A DNA stretch of 35,202 bases from Candidatus Dadabacteria bacterium (GCA_026706695.1 JAPOYE010000105.1:1-35202), one strand, 5' to 3'; counted from the first letter of the stretch, positions 2,551-7,964 are shown. Notes: a model not told the origin generated them from the sequence alone. Translations and numbers: made by a program.

Positions 2551-3570
2551 TTACTCCTCCTCAGGTTCTTTGGGGTTCTTCAAAAAGTTGAGGAACTTAC
2601 TTACCATGTTGTAGGAACCTATATATATGGGGGTTCTCTGGTGAAGTTCCGTCGGCTGAATGTCAAGAGTCCTCTCCGTTCCGCTTGACGACGCTCCTCC
2701 GGCCTGTTCCACGATGAAGGCCATCGGGTTGCACTCGTAGAGAAGCCTGAGTTTTCCGTCGGGAGAATCCGAAGTCCGCGGATAGAGAAATATTCCTCCC
2801 TTGAGCAGGTTCCTGTGTATGTCCGCTACCATGGACCCGACGTACCGAAGCGAAAGTCTGGAACTGCCGTCTCCGTCTCTGCAGTGATCGAGATACTCCT
2901 TTACCCTGTCGGGGAATTTTGAGTAGTTATAGTAGTTGACCGAGAAGATATTGCCGTGGCTCGGGATCTTTATGTTCGGATGGGAGAGGCAGAACTCTCC
3001 TATCGAGGGGTCAAGGGTAAACCCGTTTACTCCGTGGCCGGTAGTGTACACCAGCATGGTCGAAGAACCGTATATTATGTACCCGGCGGCCGTCTGGGCC
3101 TTGCCCGGCTGCAGAAAATCCTCCTTGAGACACGGGGAGAACATCTTTGACGTTCTTCTGTATACGGAAAATATGGTTCCAACCGATACGTTCACGTCTA
3201 TGTTGGAGGATCCGTCGAGAGGGTCGATGGCTATGATGTATTTCGAGTTTCTCGAGTTCTCGTCGGAAAATGCTATAAAGTCCTCGTTCTCCTCAGACGC
3301 CACCCCCGCGCATTCTCCGCCATGTTCAAGCGCGGTCAGAAACTTCTCGTTCGCGTAGGAATCAAGCTTTCTTACCTCTTCCCCCTGGATGTTTACCTGT
3401 CCCGTCTTGCCAAGGATGTCCGCGACCAGCCCCGCTTTGTTCACTTCCCTGTGGACTATTTTCGCCGCGAACCCTATATCCCGAAGCAGTCTTGAGAGCT
3501 CCCCGGTGGAATAGGGGAATTCATACTGATTTCTTATGATGAATTCGTCAAGAGTAGTTATCGAGACCAT
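2551..3570 (-). CDS. fbp: Fructose-1,6-bisphosphatase class I
   Basis: The 339-residue enzyme hydrolyses fructose 1,6-bisphosphate to fructose 6-phosphate, the committed step of gluconeogenesis. The metal-binding signature [17 protein letters not shown] is intact, followed by GTIFSVYRR; the substrate-binding region [19 protein letters not shown] and the C-terminal [16 protein letters not shown] block are all present. The start is an ATG at 3570 with no obvious Shine-Dalgarno. Downstream the LLM oxidoreductase begins 2 bases after the stop. Placement beside pgk and the aldolase supports a gluconeogenic role. Length and motifs are normal for class I FBPase. Confidence 0.96.
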
Positions 3571-4554: not shown

Positions 4555-4562
4555 TAAGTTTT
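4555..4562. repeat. Target-site duplication, left copy (TAAGTTTT)
   Basis: Eight bases directly outside the left inverted repeat, identical to 7144-7151 directly outside the right one. Eight base pairs is the duplication size expected for the IS1595 family, which fixes both element boundaries. Confidence 0.93.
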
Positions 4563-4586
4563 GGGAATTATAAAGATTACTTGACA
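4563..4586 (+). repeat. Left terminal inverted repeat
   Basis: Begins GGGAATTATAAAG and ends TTACTTGACA. Against the right repeat 21 of 24 positions match with one gap and two mismatches. Its inner end is a -35 hexamer (TTGACA, 4581-4586). Confidence 0.92.
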
Positions 4587-4610
4587 GCCTCTCTTTAATC
4601 CCACTATAAT
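4581..4610 (+). promoter_or_regulatory. Sigma70-type promoter starting inside the left inverted repeat
   Basis: TTGACA at 4581-4586 and TATAAT at 4605-4610 are both perfect consensus hexamers, separated by 18 bases. Transcription would start near 4617 and run into the winged-helix ORF at 4663. The -35 box lies within the inverted repeat. Confidence 0.75.
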
Positions 4611-4662
4611 CTTCCCTCATGGAATCCAACTGGGCAAATAAAACCATATGGGAGGTTACACA

Positions 4663-4893
4663 ATGATAGAACCAAAAACCCTAGCGACGGTAGGTGTGTA
4701 TTGTCTCAAAGAGGCAGTCTTACAAGAGCTCTCTAGAGAAAGGCTGTCAACAGTGGTTGAGGTTTCAAAGAAACTTGACCTTCCCTTACACGAATGCAGT
4801 TGTAAAAGAATAGTTAAAGCTGTTTTGCATCAATTAGAGAGTGAGGGAAAAGCAGAGAGGGATGGCCCTCAAAAATGGGGTTTAAACCAGTAA
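4663..4893 (+). CDS. Small winged-helix-like protein (element cargo)
   Basis: A 76-residue protein that I read as a small winged helix-turn-helix. Helices are suggested around residues 16-25 and 28-38, a probable recognition helix around 48-62 (IVKAVLHQLESEGKAE), then a short wing ending QKWGL. It may regulate the element or simply bind DNA; function is not known. The start at ATG 4663 is preferred over ATG 4648 because GGAGGT (4651-4656) lies 6 bases before it, inside the longer alternative. A consensus promoter in the left inverted repeat drives it. It converges on the 4932-5342 gene. It contains two nearby cysteines (ECSC), which could be incidental. Confidence 0.7.
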   Translation: MIEPKTLATVGVYCLKEAVLQELSRERLSTVVEVSKKLDLPLHECSCKRIVKAVLHQLESEGKAERDGPQKWGLNQ

Positions 4894-4931
4894 AAATTCT
4901 GGGGACTATATACAATGTTACCCAAGAACCT

Positions 4932-5342
4932 CTAAGGTAATCGTGATTTAGGATAGCAAATAGATTTCATTATCCGAAATCTTTTATGCTTATTATGCTC
5001 AATAAGCCCATAAGAGATTGTTTCTTTTTGATTTTTCTTTGTTTCATAGATTAATTTCCATAGCACGTCATACGCTTTGGTATAAGATGAATATTCGTAT
5101 GGTTTGTAGTAACCGTCATGAACATATCCATACCATTCTTCAATACAATCAAAATATTCATTTTTTGTTTCGGGGTCAGCACCAAGGCCGCTCCAATGCA
5201 TTGTTATTTCACCGTTTTCAAATGCCCAATCCCAACTTCTGGTTTCATCATTTTTATTGGTTTGGGCATGAGCACTCATGCCCATTAGGAATAAACAGAC
5301 AAATAATATGAGTGGATACTTTATGGTGAGTTTTTGTTTCAT
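4932..5342 (-). CDS. Small secreted protein, unknown function (element cargo)
   Basis: The 136-residue product has a clear Sec signal peptide: a basic start (MKQKLTIK), a hydrophobic core about residues 10-22, and an AHAQ cleavage site near residue 27. The mature ~110 residues are rich in Tyr, Trp and acidic residues early and Lys/Arg late, with two cysteines. I recognise no domain. Translation is supported by AAGGAG about 8 bases before the ATG. Composition is AT-rich, as elsewhere in the cargo segment and unlike the chromosome around the element. It is oriented opposite to the other cargo ORFs but the same way as the transposase. An exported protein is an unusual passenger for an IS. Confidence 0.65.
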   Translation of the reverse strand: MKQKLTIKYPLILFVCLFLMGMSAHAQTNKNDETRSWDWAFENGEITMHWSGLGADPETKNEYFDCIEEWYGYVHDGYYKPYEYSSYTKAYDVLWKLIYETKKNQKETISYGLIEHNKHKRFRIMKSICYPKSRLP

Positions 5343-5556
5343 TTATCTCTCCTTAAAAAGTCTTCAATTTCATCAAATATAATTACTTTTGAGAAAACGT
5401 TAAGCCAGCAAGTATATTCTTCCGAGAAATTATAAAAGATCTCCTTGATTTTTTTGTGTGTACAATTATTATCTTGATAACACCTTTTTCGTATTAGTGA
5501 GGCGATCGGAGCCTCTGTTTAAATGTCTGTGATTCGTGCTTATATTTATACGTATC
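5343..5556. other. AT-rich divergent intergenic region within the element
   Basis: This 214-bp stretch separates the minus-strand secreted protein from the plus-strand membrane protein. A plausible plus-strand promoter is TTGATT (5445-5450) with TATTAT (5467-5472), 16 bases apart. A short hairpin GAGGC/GCCTC lies at 5499-5515. Several TATA-like hexamers on the minus strand could serve the secreted gene but none has a good -35 partner. Confidence 0.35.
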
Positions 5557-6030
5557 ATGGGTACTTTCATTGAAAACAATCCTACTATTGTTGTTGCTAT
5601 TATTGTGGCGATTGCTGGGATTTTCTACTGGGCGGGTTCTCTCCGAGCAGATGTAAATACGCTCAAAAAATCGATAGAGGAAATCCGCACAGACATTAAA
5701 GAAATCCTTTCAAATCTTTCGCCAAATCCAACCACCGGAAGATCAAGCCCCTTAGAACTGACAGACTTGGGGAAAGATATTTCAAAAGAAATTCAAGCAT
5801 TTCAGTGGGCAAAAGAAACAGCCCCCGCTCTTGTCAATGAAGTTGCAGACAAGCATCCCTATGAAATTCAAGAATTCTGTCTCGGGTATGTGAGAGGAAA
5901 GGTTTTGCCTGAAAGCATGGAAGAGAAAGTGAAAACATCCGCTTATAAACGCGGGTTGGATAAGGAGCAGGTATTAAGAGTTTTGGCGGTTGAGTTAAGA
6001 GACTGCCTTTTGAATGAGGATAAATCATGA
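5557..6030 (+). CDS. Single-pass membrane protein with coiled coil, unknown function (element cargo)
   Basis: A 157-residue protein with an N-terminal membrane anchor (about residues 8-26, hydrophobic NPTIVVAIIVAIAGIFYWAG) followed by a heptad-like coiled coil (about 30-55, ADVNTLKKSIEEIRTDIKEI) and a soluble, mostly helical C-terminal domain. I do not recognise the soluble domain. The ATG at 5557 gives the more natural N-terminus; an in-frame GTG at 5536 would add seven residues, and neither has a convincing Shine-Dalgarno. The stop TGA overlaps the ATG of the next small ORF (ATGA at 6027-6030), which implies translational coupling. Its 3' end faces the transposase gene. Confidence 0.65.
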   Translation: MGTFIENNPTIVVAIIVAIAGIFYWAGSLRADVNTLKKSIEEIRTDIKEILSNLSPNPTTGRSSPLELTDLGKDISKEIQAFQWAKETAPALVNEVADKHPYEIQEFCLGYVRGKVLPESMEEKVKTSAYKRGLDKEQVLRVLAVELRDCLLNEDKS

Positions 6031-6206
6031 AACCCGTAATCGACAGAGAACGAGACCTCAAGGGGGCAACCCCTGAAACCCTCGCCAAGGCCTTGTTAAG
6101 ACCGAGCAAGGGAAGACAGGCCGTTGTCGGCGACAAGCTCCCTGTAAAGCAAGTTGCGACCCATAAGACCGGCGACCGTGGAACGCATTTGAAAAAGGGT
6201 TCCTGA
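6027..6206 (+). CDS. 59-residue ORF coupled to the membrane protein; antisense to transposase 3' end
   Basis: The frame starts at ATG 6027, overlapping the upstream TGA by four bases, and ends at TGA 6204-6206. The first ~25 residues (charged, with GATPETLAKALLR) look like a genuine short helical motif; the rest reads antisense through the end of the transposase gene (overlap 6096-6206), so that portion could be a by-product of the coding constraint on the other strand. No function can be assigned. Possible roles are a small partner of the membrane protein or simply a spurious extension; the ATGA junction is the main argument that it is translated. Confidence 0.45.
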   Translation: MKPVIDRERDLKGATPETLAKALLRPSKGRQAVVGDKLPVKQVATHKTGDRGTHLKKGS

Positions 6207-7070
6207 ATCCCTCGTGTTGTGCTTGCCGACAAATTCCTGAATGTACCGGTCAAGGTGCTTCGGGCTGATTTTGTGGAAGGTTCCTTTGTGTGCTCTTTTG
6301 AGCATACTCCAGAAGGACTCAATCCCGTTTGTGTGGGCTTGGAGTCTGACCCATTCACCGACACTGTGATTCACTGATTCGTGATTCGGAAGTCCCGAGT
6401 AACTTCTGTGATCATCAGTGTAAACCTTCGCTTCAGGGGATACGTTCTTCCTGATAAAGCCGTGTACAGTCTCCTTGTCCCTGCCAGATACCCGCTTCGC
6501 AACAACCTTGTTGGACTTCCTGTCCTTCATGCCGACTACAACATCTTTGCCGGAAGGCCCCTGCACATGACTTCTCTTGTCATTGTGCTTGTTTCTGTCT
6601 CGGCCACCCATGAAGGTTTCATCTACTTCCACGGGACCTCCGAAATCGTTGTTTCCTTCGCATTGCCACGCTTCCCGGATCCTGTGAAGCATGAACCACG
6701 CCGTGGGTTGGGATACGCCTATATCTCGGTGAAGTTTCATGCTGGATATGCTCATACGACTTGTAAGGCAAAGATACATAGCGATCGCCCACTTCTGAAG
6801 AGGGACGTTGGAACGGGCTATGGCGGTTCCGGTACGGACGCTAAAATAACTTCGGCAGTCCTTACACCAATAAGGCATAGGCTTAGCATTAGGAACTTCC
6901 TTGGTTTCCGTACTTCCGCACTTCCCGCAAAAGCGGTCGTCTCCCCAGATAATGGACTCGAACCAGCGGGTGGCGGTTTCCTCATCGGGAAACATTTCCA
7001 GTAGCTCTAACAGCGTGATTCCTTCTCTATGAGCTTTGCCCGGGGCTTTGAATGTCGCTTTGTCTTTCAT
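6096..7070 (-). CDS. IS1595-family transposase (ISXO2-like DDE)
   Basis: The 324-residue transposase has the family layout: an N-terminal zinc-finger region (CGKCG and CKDC with a TRW/Y context), a helical DNA-binding segment (SISSMKLHRDIGVSQPTAW), then the ISXO2-like catalytic domain with VEVDETFMGGR (first Asp), VYTDDHRSYSG (second Asp) and a C-terminal NGIESFWS motif holding the last catalytic residue, followed by HLDRYIQEFVGKHN. The start at ATG 7070 is preferred over 7106 because AGAGGA precedes it and because the promoter -10 box is at 7098-7103, downstream of the longer start. The reading frame is complete, so the enzyme may be active. It ends convergent with, and overlapped by, the 59-residue ORF. 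Confidence 0.93.
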   Translation of the reverse strand: MKDKATFKAPGKAHREGITLLELLEMFPDEETATRWFESIIWGDDRFCGKCGSTETKEVPNAKPMPYWCKDCRSYFSVRTGTAIARSNVPLQKWAIAMYLCLTSRMSISSMKLHRDIGVSQPTAWFMLHRIREAWQCEGNNDFGGPVEVDETFMGGRDRNKHNDKRSHVQGPSGKDVVVGMKDRKSNKVVAKRVSGRDKETVHGFIRKNVSPEAKVYTDDHRSYSGLPNHESVNHSVGEWVRLQAHTNGIESFWSMLKRAHKGTFHKISPKHLDRYIQEFVGKHNTRDSGTLFQMRSTVAGLMGRNLLYRELVADNGLSSLARS

Positions 7071-7097
7071 GTTGTATCCTCTTGAAATCATGGTAAG

Positions 7098-7126
7098 ATT
7101 ATACATGAAAGAATTTAGTTTGTCAA
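7098..7126 (-). promoter_or_regulatory. Consensus sigma70 promoter of the transposase, -35 in the right inverted repeat
   Basis: On the minus strand TTGACA (7126-7121) and TATAAT (7103-7098) are perfect consensus hexamers with the optimal 17-base spacer. Predicted start is near 7091, about 20 bases before the transposase ATG at 7070. Confidence 0.82.
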
Positions 7127-7143
7127 GTAAGGTTTATAATCCC
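7121..7143 (-). repeat. Right terminal inverted repeat
   Basis: Read inward on the minus strand it begins GGGATTATAAACC and ends TTACTTGACA, matching the left repeat at 4563-4586 apart from one gap and two substitutions. Confidence 0.92.
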
Positions 7144-7151
7144 TAAGTTTT
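7144..7151. repeat. Target-site duplication, right copy (TAAGTTTT)
   Basis: Exact copy of 4555-4562, directly outside the right inverted repeat. Removing the element plus one copy restores an uninterrupted chromosomal sequence upstream of cvpA. Confidence 0.93.
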
Positions 7152-7262
7152 GGATTTTTCGCGATAGGATGGAACTATGAACCGGACAGAGTTACCGCAG
7201 AAGATATTGACGACGCAATTCGAGCAAGTATGTTACGCGCGAGGGTAGCGGGTTTATAAAAA

Positions 7263-7823
7263 TCATGGCGCGAAAGTGTAGTCGAGGCTCAGAACGCCGG
7301 GCTCGCCCGAGTGCCGCGGATGCAGCAAGTGCCGCAGATGCAGCTGGATGATGGAACCTTTGTCTGTCCTGTAGGCTTCCTGATACAGCGTTTTGATAGG
7401 CGTCAGGTCAAAGACATAGCGATCTGTCGGATACGCCTCGCACGTGTCGTCGTTGGCGTCATGTGTCAGGGTGACGACGAGCTGGACGGGATCTGATTCC
7501 ATGAAGCTGCCGTCCGTGACGAGGGTGAAATCGTGTATTTCACAGCCGCCGCTGTACGATACCGTGAGGGTCAGCGTGTCGTTTTCGATGACCGGTTCAT
7601 GCTCGCCGTCTGTTTCGAGTTCATACGCATCGCTTTCCCGGAGTGCGATGTCTCTGTCCACATTGTTGATGACGACCGATCCGCTGAGCGTGCGGTCGTG
7701 CGTGTCAGCGGGAGGCGTGCTTGAGATGCTACCGTCCGGGTTATTGTCTGGCCCTTGTCCGCATGCTGTTGCGGACAGGAGCAGCAGACAGATAATGACC
7801 TTGCTTATTCTCTCCCAACACAT
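7263..7823 (-). CDS. Predicted lipoprotein, unknown function
   Basis: The 186-residue product begins with a type II signal peptide: Arg/Lys after the start, hydrophobic VIICLLLLS, and a lipobox ending LSATAC, so Cys21 would be lipidated. The mature part starts with a Pro/Asp/Ser-rich linker and continues as an acidic, beta-rich domain with repeated Thr/Val strands (for example ENDTLTLTVSYSGGCEIHDF) and a Cys pair that could form a disulfide. I recognise no family. AAGGAG lies about 9 bases before the ATG. It is a single gene between the IS element and the polyprenyl synthase, oriented away from it; the spacer to that gene (7824-8002) holds no other ORF. Confidence 0.78.
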   Translation of the reverse strand: MCWERISKVIICLLLLSATACGQGPDNNPDGSISSTPPADTHDRTLSGSVVINNVDRDIALRESDAYELETDGEHEPVIENDTLTLTVSYSGGCEIHDFTLVTDGSFMESDPVQLVVTLTHDANDDTCEAYPTDRYVFDLTPIKTLYQEAYRTDKGSIIQLHLRHLLHPRHSGEPGVLSLDYTFAP

Positions 7824-7964
7824 GTCATTGATCTCCTTCAGAATGGCCGGTCGCCGCTAACCTAAACGGTTGTCGACCGCTGTCAAGGCATCTGAGAATC
7901 TGTGTAAGAACTGTAACTGATAAACTGATTGTCCAGTTCCCTGCTGCCTTGCTGTCGGCAGTCT

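Follow-up and report, generated by a model that had tools for sequence, protein, structure and literature searches.

The window, by which we mean the whole stretch of 35,202 nucleotides analyzed here from a Candidatus Dadabacteria bacterium (GCA_026706695.1 JAPOYE010000105.1:1-35202), carries an IS1595-family element that occupies 4563-7143 (2,581 bp). A preliminary description had correctly placed an element here, but its span of 4555-7151 took in both copies of the target-site duplication (TSD). The features are as follows.

4555..4562, no strand: TSD, left copy TAAGTTTT, 8/8 identical to the right copy
4563..4586, no strand: terminal inverted repeat (IR), cargo side (GGGAATTATAAAGATTACTTGACA), from alignment of the ends and comparison with sister elements
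4581..4610, + strand: inward-facing promoter of the cargo end, with TTGACA formed by the final 6 bp of the IR, an 18-nt spacer and TATAAT, 12/12 by sequence match
4663..4893, + strand: passenger, small helix-turn-helix (HTH)-like protein, 76 aa, from a three-helix AF2 model, a sub-threshold BLACT_WH match and a homologue in locus L049
4932..5342, - strand: passenger, 136-aa protein predicted to be secreted, with a signal peptide that ends near SAHA, from translation
5557..6030, + strand: passenger "mem", 157 aa, with one transmembrane helix, a coiled coil and a C-terminal five-helix domain in the AF2 model
6027..6206, + strand: conserved microprotein, 59 aa, motif DLKGATPETLAKALLR, probable second core gene, from motif profile, codon selection and transposase tree
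6096..7106, - strand: IS1595-family DDE transposase of 336 aa, with 7070 as a possible internal start, from PF12762, NF033547 and invariant D/E residues in the alignment
7098..7126, - strand: transposase promoter, TTGACA (in the IR), 17 nt, TATAAT, 12/12 by sequence match
7121..7143, no strand: terminal IR, transposase side (GGGATTATAAACCTTACTTGACA), from alignment of the ends
7144..7151, no strand: TSD, right copy TAAGTTTT, 8/8 identical to the left copy

When the two ends, GGGAATTATAAAGATTACTTGACA and GGGATTATAAACCTTACTTGACA, are aligned, 21 of 23 positions agree and one 1-nt gap is needed, so that the inverted repeats reported earlier as matched are better called near-matched, and 31 bp at the cargo-side end are 97% identical to the transposase-side end of the sister element L056. 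Both ends start with GG (GGGAATTATA... and GGGATTATA...), as terminal repeats of the IS1595 family do, and the perfect 8-bp duplication already noted (TAAGTTTT, 8/8 at 4555-4562 and 7144-7151) has the length typical of the family. The transposase reading frame is uninterrupted over 336 aa and matches the DDE_Tnp_IS1595 domain PF12762 (E=1.6e-38, 132.6 bits, cut-off 27) and NF033547 (E=1.4e-53, 182 bits, cut-off 75), in agreement with its earlier description as intact. The N-terminal zinc ribbon PF12760 scores slightly below its cut-off (E=4e-5, 23.8 bits against 25.4); its cysteines C60, C63, C81 and C84 are all invariant in an alignment with seven relatives, and we count the transposase as possessing the zinc ribbon that is found throughout the family except in the IS1016 group.

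In 13/13 genomes of the same genus, the element is absent at this site, and the gap between cvpA and the polyprenyl-synthase (FPPS) gene is uninterrupted and roughly 130 bp long; in the window, the same gap holds the IS1595 element and, apart from it, some 0.8 kb of further DNA (7152-7958) that includes a NigD-like gene. The window element is therefore an insertion in the cvpA-FPPS intergenic region. The fact that 65 elements in all share its build, taken together with these uninterrupted intergenic regions, shows that it is not a chance arrangement, and its ends, TSD and open transposase bear out the view that it is complete. The DNA of 7152-7958, which is missing from the site in all 13 relatives, adjoins the element as a second, separate insertion, and its ORF (7263-7823, - strand) has a sub-threshold NigD-like match. 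A piece of the normal intergenic region, AGTCTTTGACTTG, is found on both sides (around 4525 and 7961), so the normal intergenic region has been split and partly duplicated.

The element is present in a single copy in its own genome (a 1.87-Mb assembly), where the only other similar sequences are transposase segments that are more distantly related and, on contig C19, two copies resembling the terminal repeat. On that contig, one transposase-less unit (L004 16606-17370) has repeats nearly identical to those of the window element and contains one 187-aa ORF without an assigned family; it has no TSD and is a candidate mobile insertion cassette. The same contig carries a second IS1595 transposase, 55% identical to that of the window (L004 363-3480); the gene right after it encodes an N6/N4 methyltransferase-HNH fusion, and small ORFs come next. 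The right repeat lies at 3480, and the left end was not found. Single-copy status, the differences between the repeats (two mismatches and a 1-nt indel), and the AT-rich cargo (GC down to about 0.33 as against about 0.51 in the transposase gene) might together suggest a dead element filled with accumulated debris. We consider this quite unlikely, however, as the TSD is perfect, the transposase and all other ORFs are open, and the predicted promoters at both ends match at 12/12 positions.

Relatives of the element were collected by scanning one genome per species, which yielded 80 with 50-67% transposase identity from many phyla, mostly in uncultured MAGs, at least one of them from a sponge. 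The 65 end-defined elements, in which both ends are set by repeats and TSDs and among which same-genus elements are included, measure 1.4-5.4 kb, the median being 2.78 kb and the transposase accounting for about 1 kb; nearly all of these relatives bear cargo, and their TSDs are 79% AT as compared with 45% in the flanks. Movement of the whole unit is seen in the closest sister pair: L056 and L057 are 99.96% identical over 2.77 kb, methyltransferase (MTase)-HNH cargo gene included, and occupy different sites in two species whose flanks are only about 95% identical. The site of L057 is empty in two other genomes, G009 and the window genome, the latter matching the L057 flank up to the insertion point and then running on without the element. 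A further pair of identical 1,444-bp relatives (L167/L168) with different TSDs lies within one genome. An element of this lineage thus moves as a unit together with its cargo, in this instance an MTase; given that the window's genome holds no second exact copy, the mobility of the window element with its own cargo is extrapolated from these sisters. The search suggested earlier for other copies of the whole 2.6-kb unit accordingly gave sisters with the same ends in the genus, but no second copy in the element's own genome, and the cargo of the sisters differs.

This difference is sharply delimited. The transposase of L056 is 84% identical to that of the window and its ends are the same, and the shared DNA extends from the transposase-side end to about 6022 in the window, i.e., 5 bp before the tiny ORF; beyond this point, only the last 31 bp, the terminal repeat, match, and L056 carries a DNA methyltransferase there. 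Because homology ends so abruptly before the tiny ORF and gives way to an MTase, the cargo has been exchanged rather than kept as a set; the probable mechanism is that co-resident elements, or derivatives of them lacking a transposase, recombine. Methyltransferases occur in 23/65 elements, and their presence changes 14 times on the transposase tree against a mean of 19 after shuffling, so that the distribution is still somewhat clustered. The preliminary description had proposed that a conserved set of passengers travels with the element, and had named related elements whose ends exclude the cargo genes as the evidence that would count against it; L056/L057 with their MTase-HNH gene and L058 with different small ORFs are such elements. 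The idea of four passengers forming one conserved module was dropped for this reason, namely that cargo differs between same-ended sisters.

The passengers themselves are obscure. All four ORFs described earlier exist as intact frames, though the tiny ORF goes with the transposase rather than with the cargo, as argued below. None of the window's four non-transposase ORFs scores above threshold in Pfam, NCBIfam, PHROGs or PADLOC, which bears out for the carried genes the earlier statement that none is a recognized resistance or modification gene; the lack of a PADLOC match also leaves them outside the known defence systems. The HTH-like protein (single-sequence AF2 model, three helices, pLDDT 61; sub-threshold BLACT_WH match) has one relative (E=6e-12), located in L049 on the same contig as a mem homologue. 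For the secreted protein, neither 15 family genomes nor the scanned related loci yielded a homologue, and its gene could for that reason be decaying sequence. In the AF2 model of mem, which rests on two sequences, the C-terminal helical domain reaches a pLDDT of about 90; a Foldseek comparison with PDB folds gave no significant hit (best E 0.35), neither mem nor the HTH-like protein matches PDB significantly by sequence, and mem was found neither among viral contigs nor among plasmids.

Besides that of the window, seven copies of mem are known: six in the genus (one frameshifted), spread over 4 genomes, and one in another phylum, in the Rhodothermaceae locus L162 (E=1e-32), which also contains a transposase, a DUF2513 gene, a small ORF of similar motif and a methyltransferase. 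Six of the 8 copies lie within or beside IS1595 sequence. In L050, mem is inside IS1595-type repeats; in L053 (4908-5993), the frameshifted gene stands alone between such repeats; the transposase is truncated or absent in both, being wholly missing from the L053 unit. A degenerate transposase adjoins mem in L048, and in L049 it lies between directly oriented copies of the same terminal repeat (318 and 1004), with a DUF3800 gene and the HTH-like homologue beyond them. The remaining two copies (L051, L052) have no IS1595 sequence nearby, though both are near contig ends. Judged from these surroundings, mem is a recurrent IS1595 passenger. It might be supposed that the HTH-like, secreted and membrane proteins are a functional module selected as a unit, for instance in host interaction or defence, given the presence of HTH-like and mem homologues on one contig in L049 and the recurrence of mem in four genomes of the genus and in another phylum. 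Yet the three genes occur together in no other element found, the secreted gene is an orphan, the DUF3800 gene separates mem from the HTH-like gene in L049, L162 and L050 appear to have mem without either of the other two, and PADLOC recognizes nothing here; we thus regard such a module as very unlikely.

The tiny ORF behaves differently from these genes. It overlaps mem by ATGA (6027-6030) and, on the other side, overlaps the transposase 3' end in antisense over 111 bp (6096-6206), a feature absent from the preliminary description. A profile of its motif, GATPExxA[K/R]ALLR, matches exactly once in each of 39/65 end-defined elements and in only 1/4,489 ORFs outside elements, that one beside another IS1595 fragment; the 26/65 elements without a profile match include the deepest branches of the tree. 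In sister elements, the homologues keep the antisense overlap with the transposase 3' end whatever is upstream, at 64-69% identity, in elements that lack mem and have an MTase or other ORFs in its place. In some relatives, the microprotein is sense-oriented, often just inside the opposite end and without transposase overlap. On the transposase tree, only one clade, of 20 rows, shows the antisense form at the transposase 3' end; another member of this clade also has the ORF in antisense, but at a greater distance from the transposase. The arrangement in the window's clade thus probably has a single origin.

Outside the overlap, in 13 codons, pN/pS of the microprotein is 0.30, an approximate value as synonymous sites are near saturation, and differences by codon position are 0.26/0.21/0.62; the best-conserved part, aa 10-23, also lies outside the overlap. 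This pattern indicates that the microprotein is under purifying selection. The 111-bp overlap could by itself suggest that the ORF is a functionless shadow, produced when the conserved 3' end of the transposase gene is read in antisense; this notion becomes scarcely credible in view of the position of the conserved part, the pN/pS there, and the sense-strand homologues at the other element end that overlap nothing. Separately, clusters of transposase-antisense ORFs arising in the all-against-all cargo comparison were discarded as transposase shadows by position and length.

The preliminary description had treated the tiny ORF as coupled to the membrane protein, and the ATGA overlap in the window is indeed real. 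On this basis, the element could be an ordinary transporter IS in which the tiny ORF is one more passenger, translationally coupled to mem as, e.g., a small partner or antitoxin, and L162, where a small ORF whose motif is similar (GKTPKEVAKILF, below the HMM cut-off) comes after the mem homologue, fits such coupling. We think this unlikely, since the ORF is retained in sisters without mem and its presence follows the transposase tree, which largely refutes the coupling. Because it is kept with the transposase while the upstream cargo changes, and follows the transposase tree, the tiny ORF is probably a core gene alongside the transposase, and we favour the view that its product regulates transposition or acts as a partner in it. 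Neither Pfam nor PHROG yields a significant match to the motif family, which was not encountered among plasmids or phages either; the sources that we read contain no description of this ORF, although it may have been noted before. Elements L043, L063, L068 and L070, which are devoid of the GATPE motif, have other short acidic ORFs (e.g., PDMSEFEIDDVVSILMG) that are possibly a diverged counterpart. A distant IS1595 element (31% identity) on a Pseudosulfitobacter plasmid has, at 5262-5411 in L188, a small charged ORF without the GATPE motif between its transposase and far repeat, and other distant IS1595 lineages may have microproteins of their own.

The predicted sigma-70-type promoters are perfect at both ends of the window element, and in each the inner end of the repeat supplies the -35 box. 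Promoters scoring >=10/12 are found at the transposase end of 32/65 elements (3.7 expected) and at the cargo end of 13/65 (1.7 expected). Among the 23 MTase elements, a cargo-end promoter (>=9/12) is present in 8/14 with the MTase reading inward and in 0/9 with it reading outward (p=0.007), a suggestive association in view of the elements being related and not independent.

Taken together, these observations make it highly probable, in our judgment, that the window holds an intact IS1595-family transporter IS composed of a core and an exchangeable cargo block. The core would comprise the transposase, the terminal repeats and the microprotein gene, which overlaps the transposase 3' end in antisense; the cargo block would run from the microprotein start (about 6022) to the far repeat and here contain the HTH-like, secreted and membrane-protein genes. 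From what is known of the family, the DDE transposase would pair the two ends of ~24 bp and insert the DNA enclosed by them at an AT-rich target of 8 bp. The TTGACA at the inner side of each repeat would serve as the -35 of an inward promoter, so that genes at the cargo end would be transcribed from the element's own end, and the microprotein might, more speculatively, regulate or assist the transposase. Cargo would probably change through recombination involving co-resident elements or transposase-less derivatives.

Annotation treats IS1595 elements as insertion sequences of a single gene that carry passengers only occasionally. The present lineage is cargo-rich (median 2.8 kb, of which the transposase takes up about 1 kb), and one small protein is retained alongside the transposase through changes of cargo. 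We tentatively entertain the broader proposal that the members of this large IS1595 lineage are transposons with two core genes, in which a previously undescribed microprotein of ~50-65 aa (GATPExxA[K/R]ALLR) acts as a core transposition regulator or cofactor beside replaceable cargo, so that the elements themselves would be interchangeable gene cassettes shared across phyla. If the microprotein does control transposition, it would add a missing gene to a widespread family and offer a simple handle on how small transposons gain and lose passengers; mem and the methyltransferases are candidates for genes spread between phyla by this route.

A canonical IS1595-family IS has a single transposase gene (PMC8101967); the window element shares the DDE_Tnp_IS1595 domain, N-terminal zinc ribbon, 8-bp TSD and terminal GG, but is 2.6 kb long and has four further ORFs. 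Mobile insertion cassettes (MICs), such as the modular IS231-MIC231 elements (cited in PMC3129680), likewise hold a passenger between IS ends and undergo modular exchange, and IR-bounded transposase-less units exist among the related loci too (L004 16606-17370; L053 4908-5993); unlike MICs, which have no transposase inside their ends, the window element encodes its own. Closest are the transporter IS (tIS), that is, IS with passenger genes, already described for IS1595 (PMC3129680, crediting Siguier, Gagnevin & Chandler 2009). The window element resembles these in its IS1595 transposase, GG-ended repeats, 8-bp TSD and passengers unrelated to transposition inside the ends, with three such ORFs between the IR and the microprotein gene and other genes in their place in sisters. 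It differs from tIS as described, the 2009 paper being known to us by citation only, in the conserved microprotein gene at a fixed antisense position, the IR-borne inward promoter at the cargo end, and the clean replacement of cargo beside the microprotein in the window's lineage. Passenger-bearing IS1595 elements are thus a kind already known, and what appears to be new is the conserved microprotein, together with the modular replacement of the cargo next to it.
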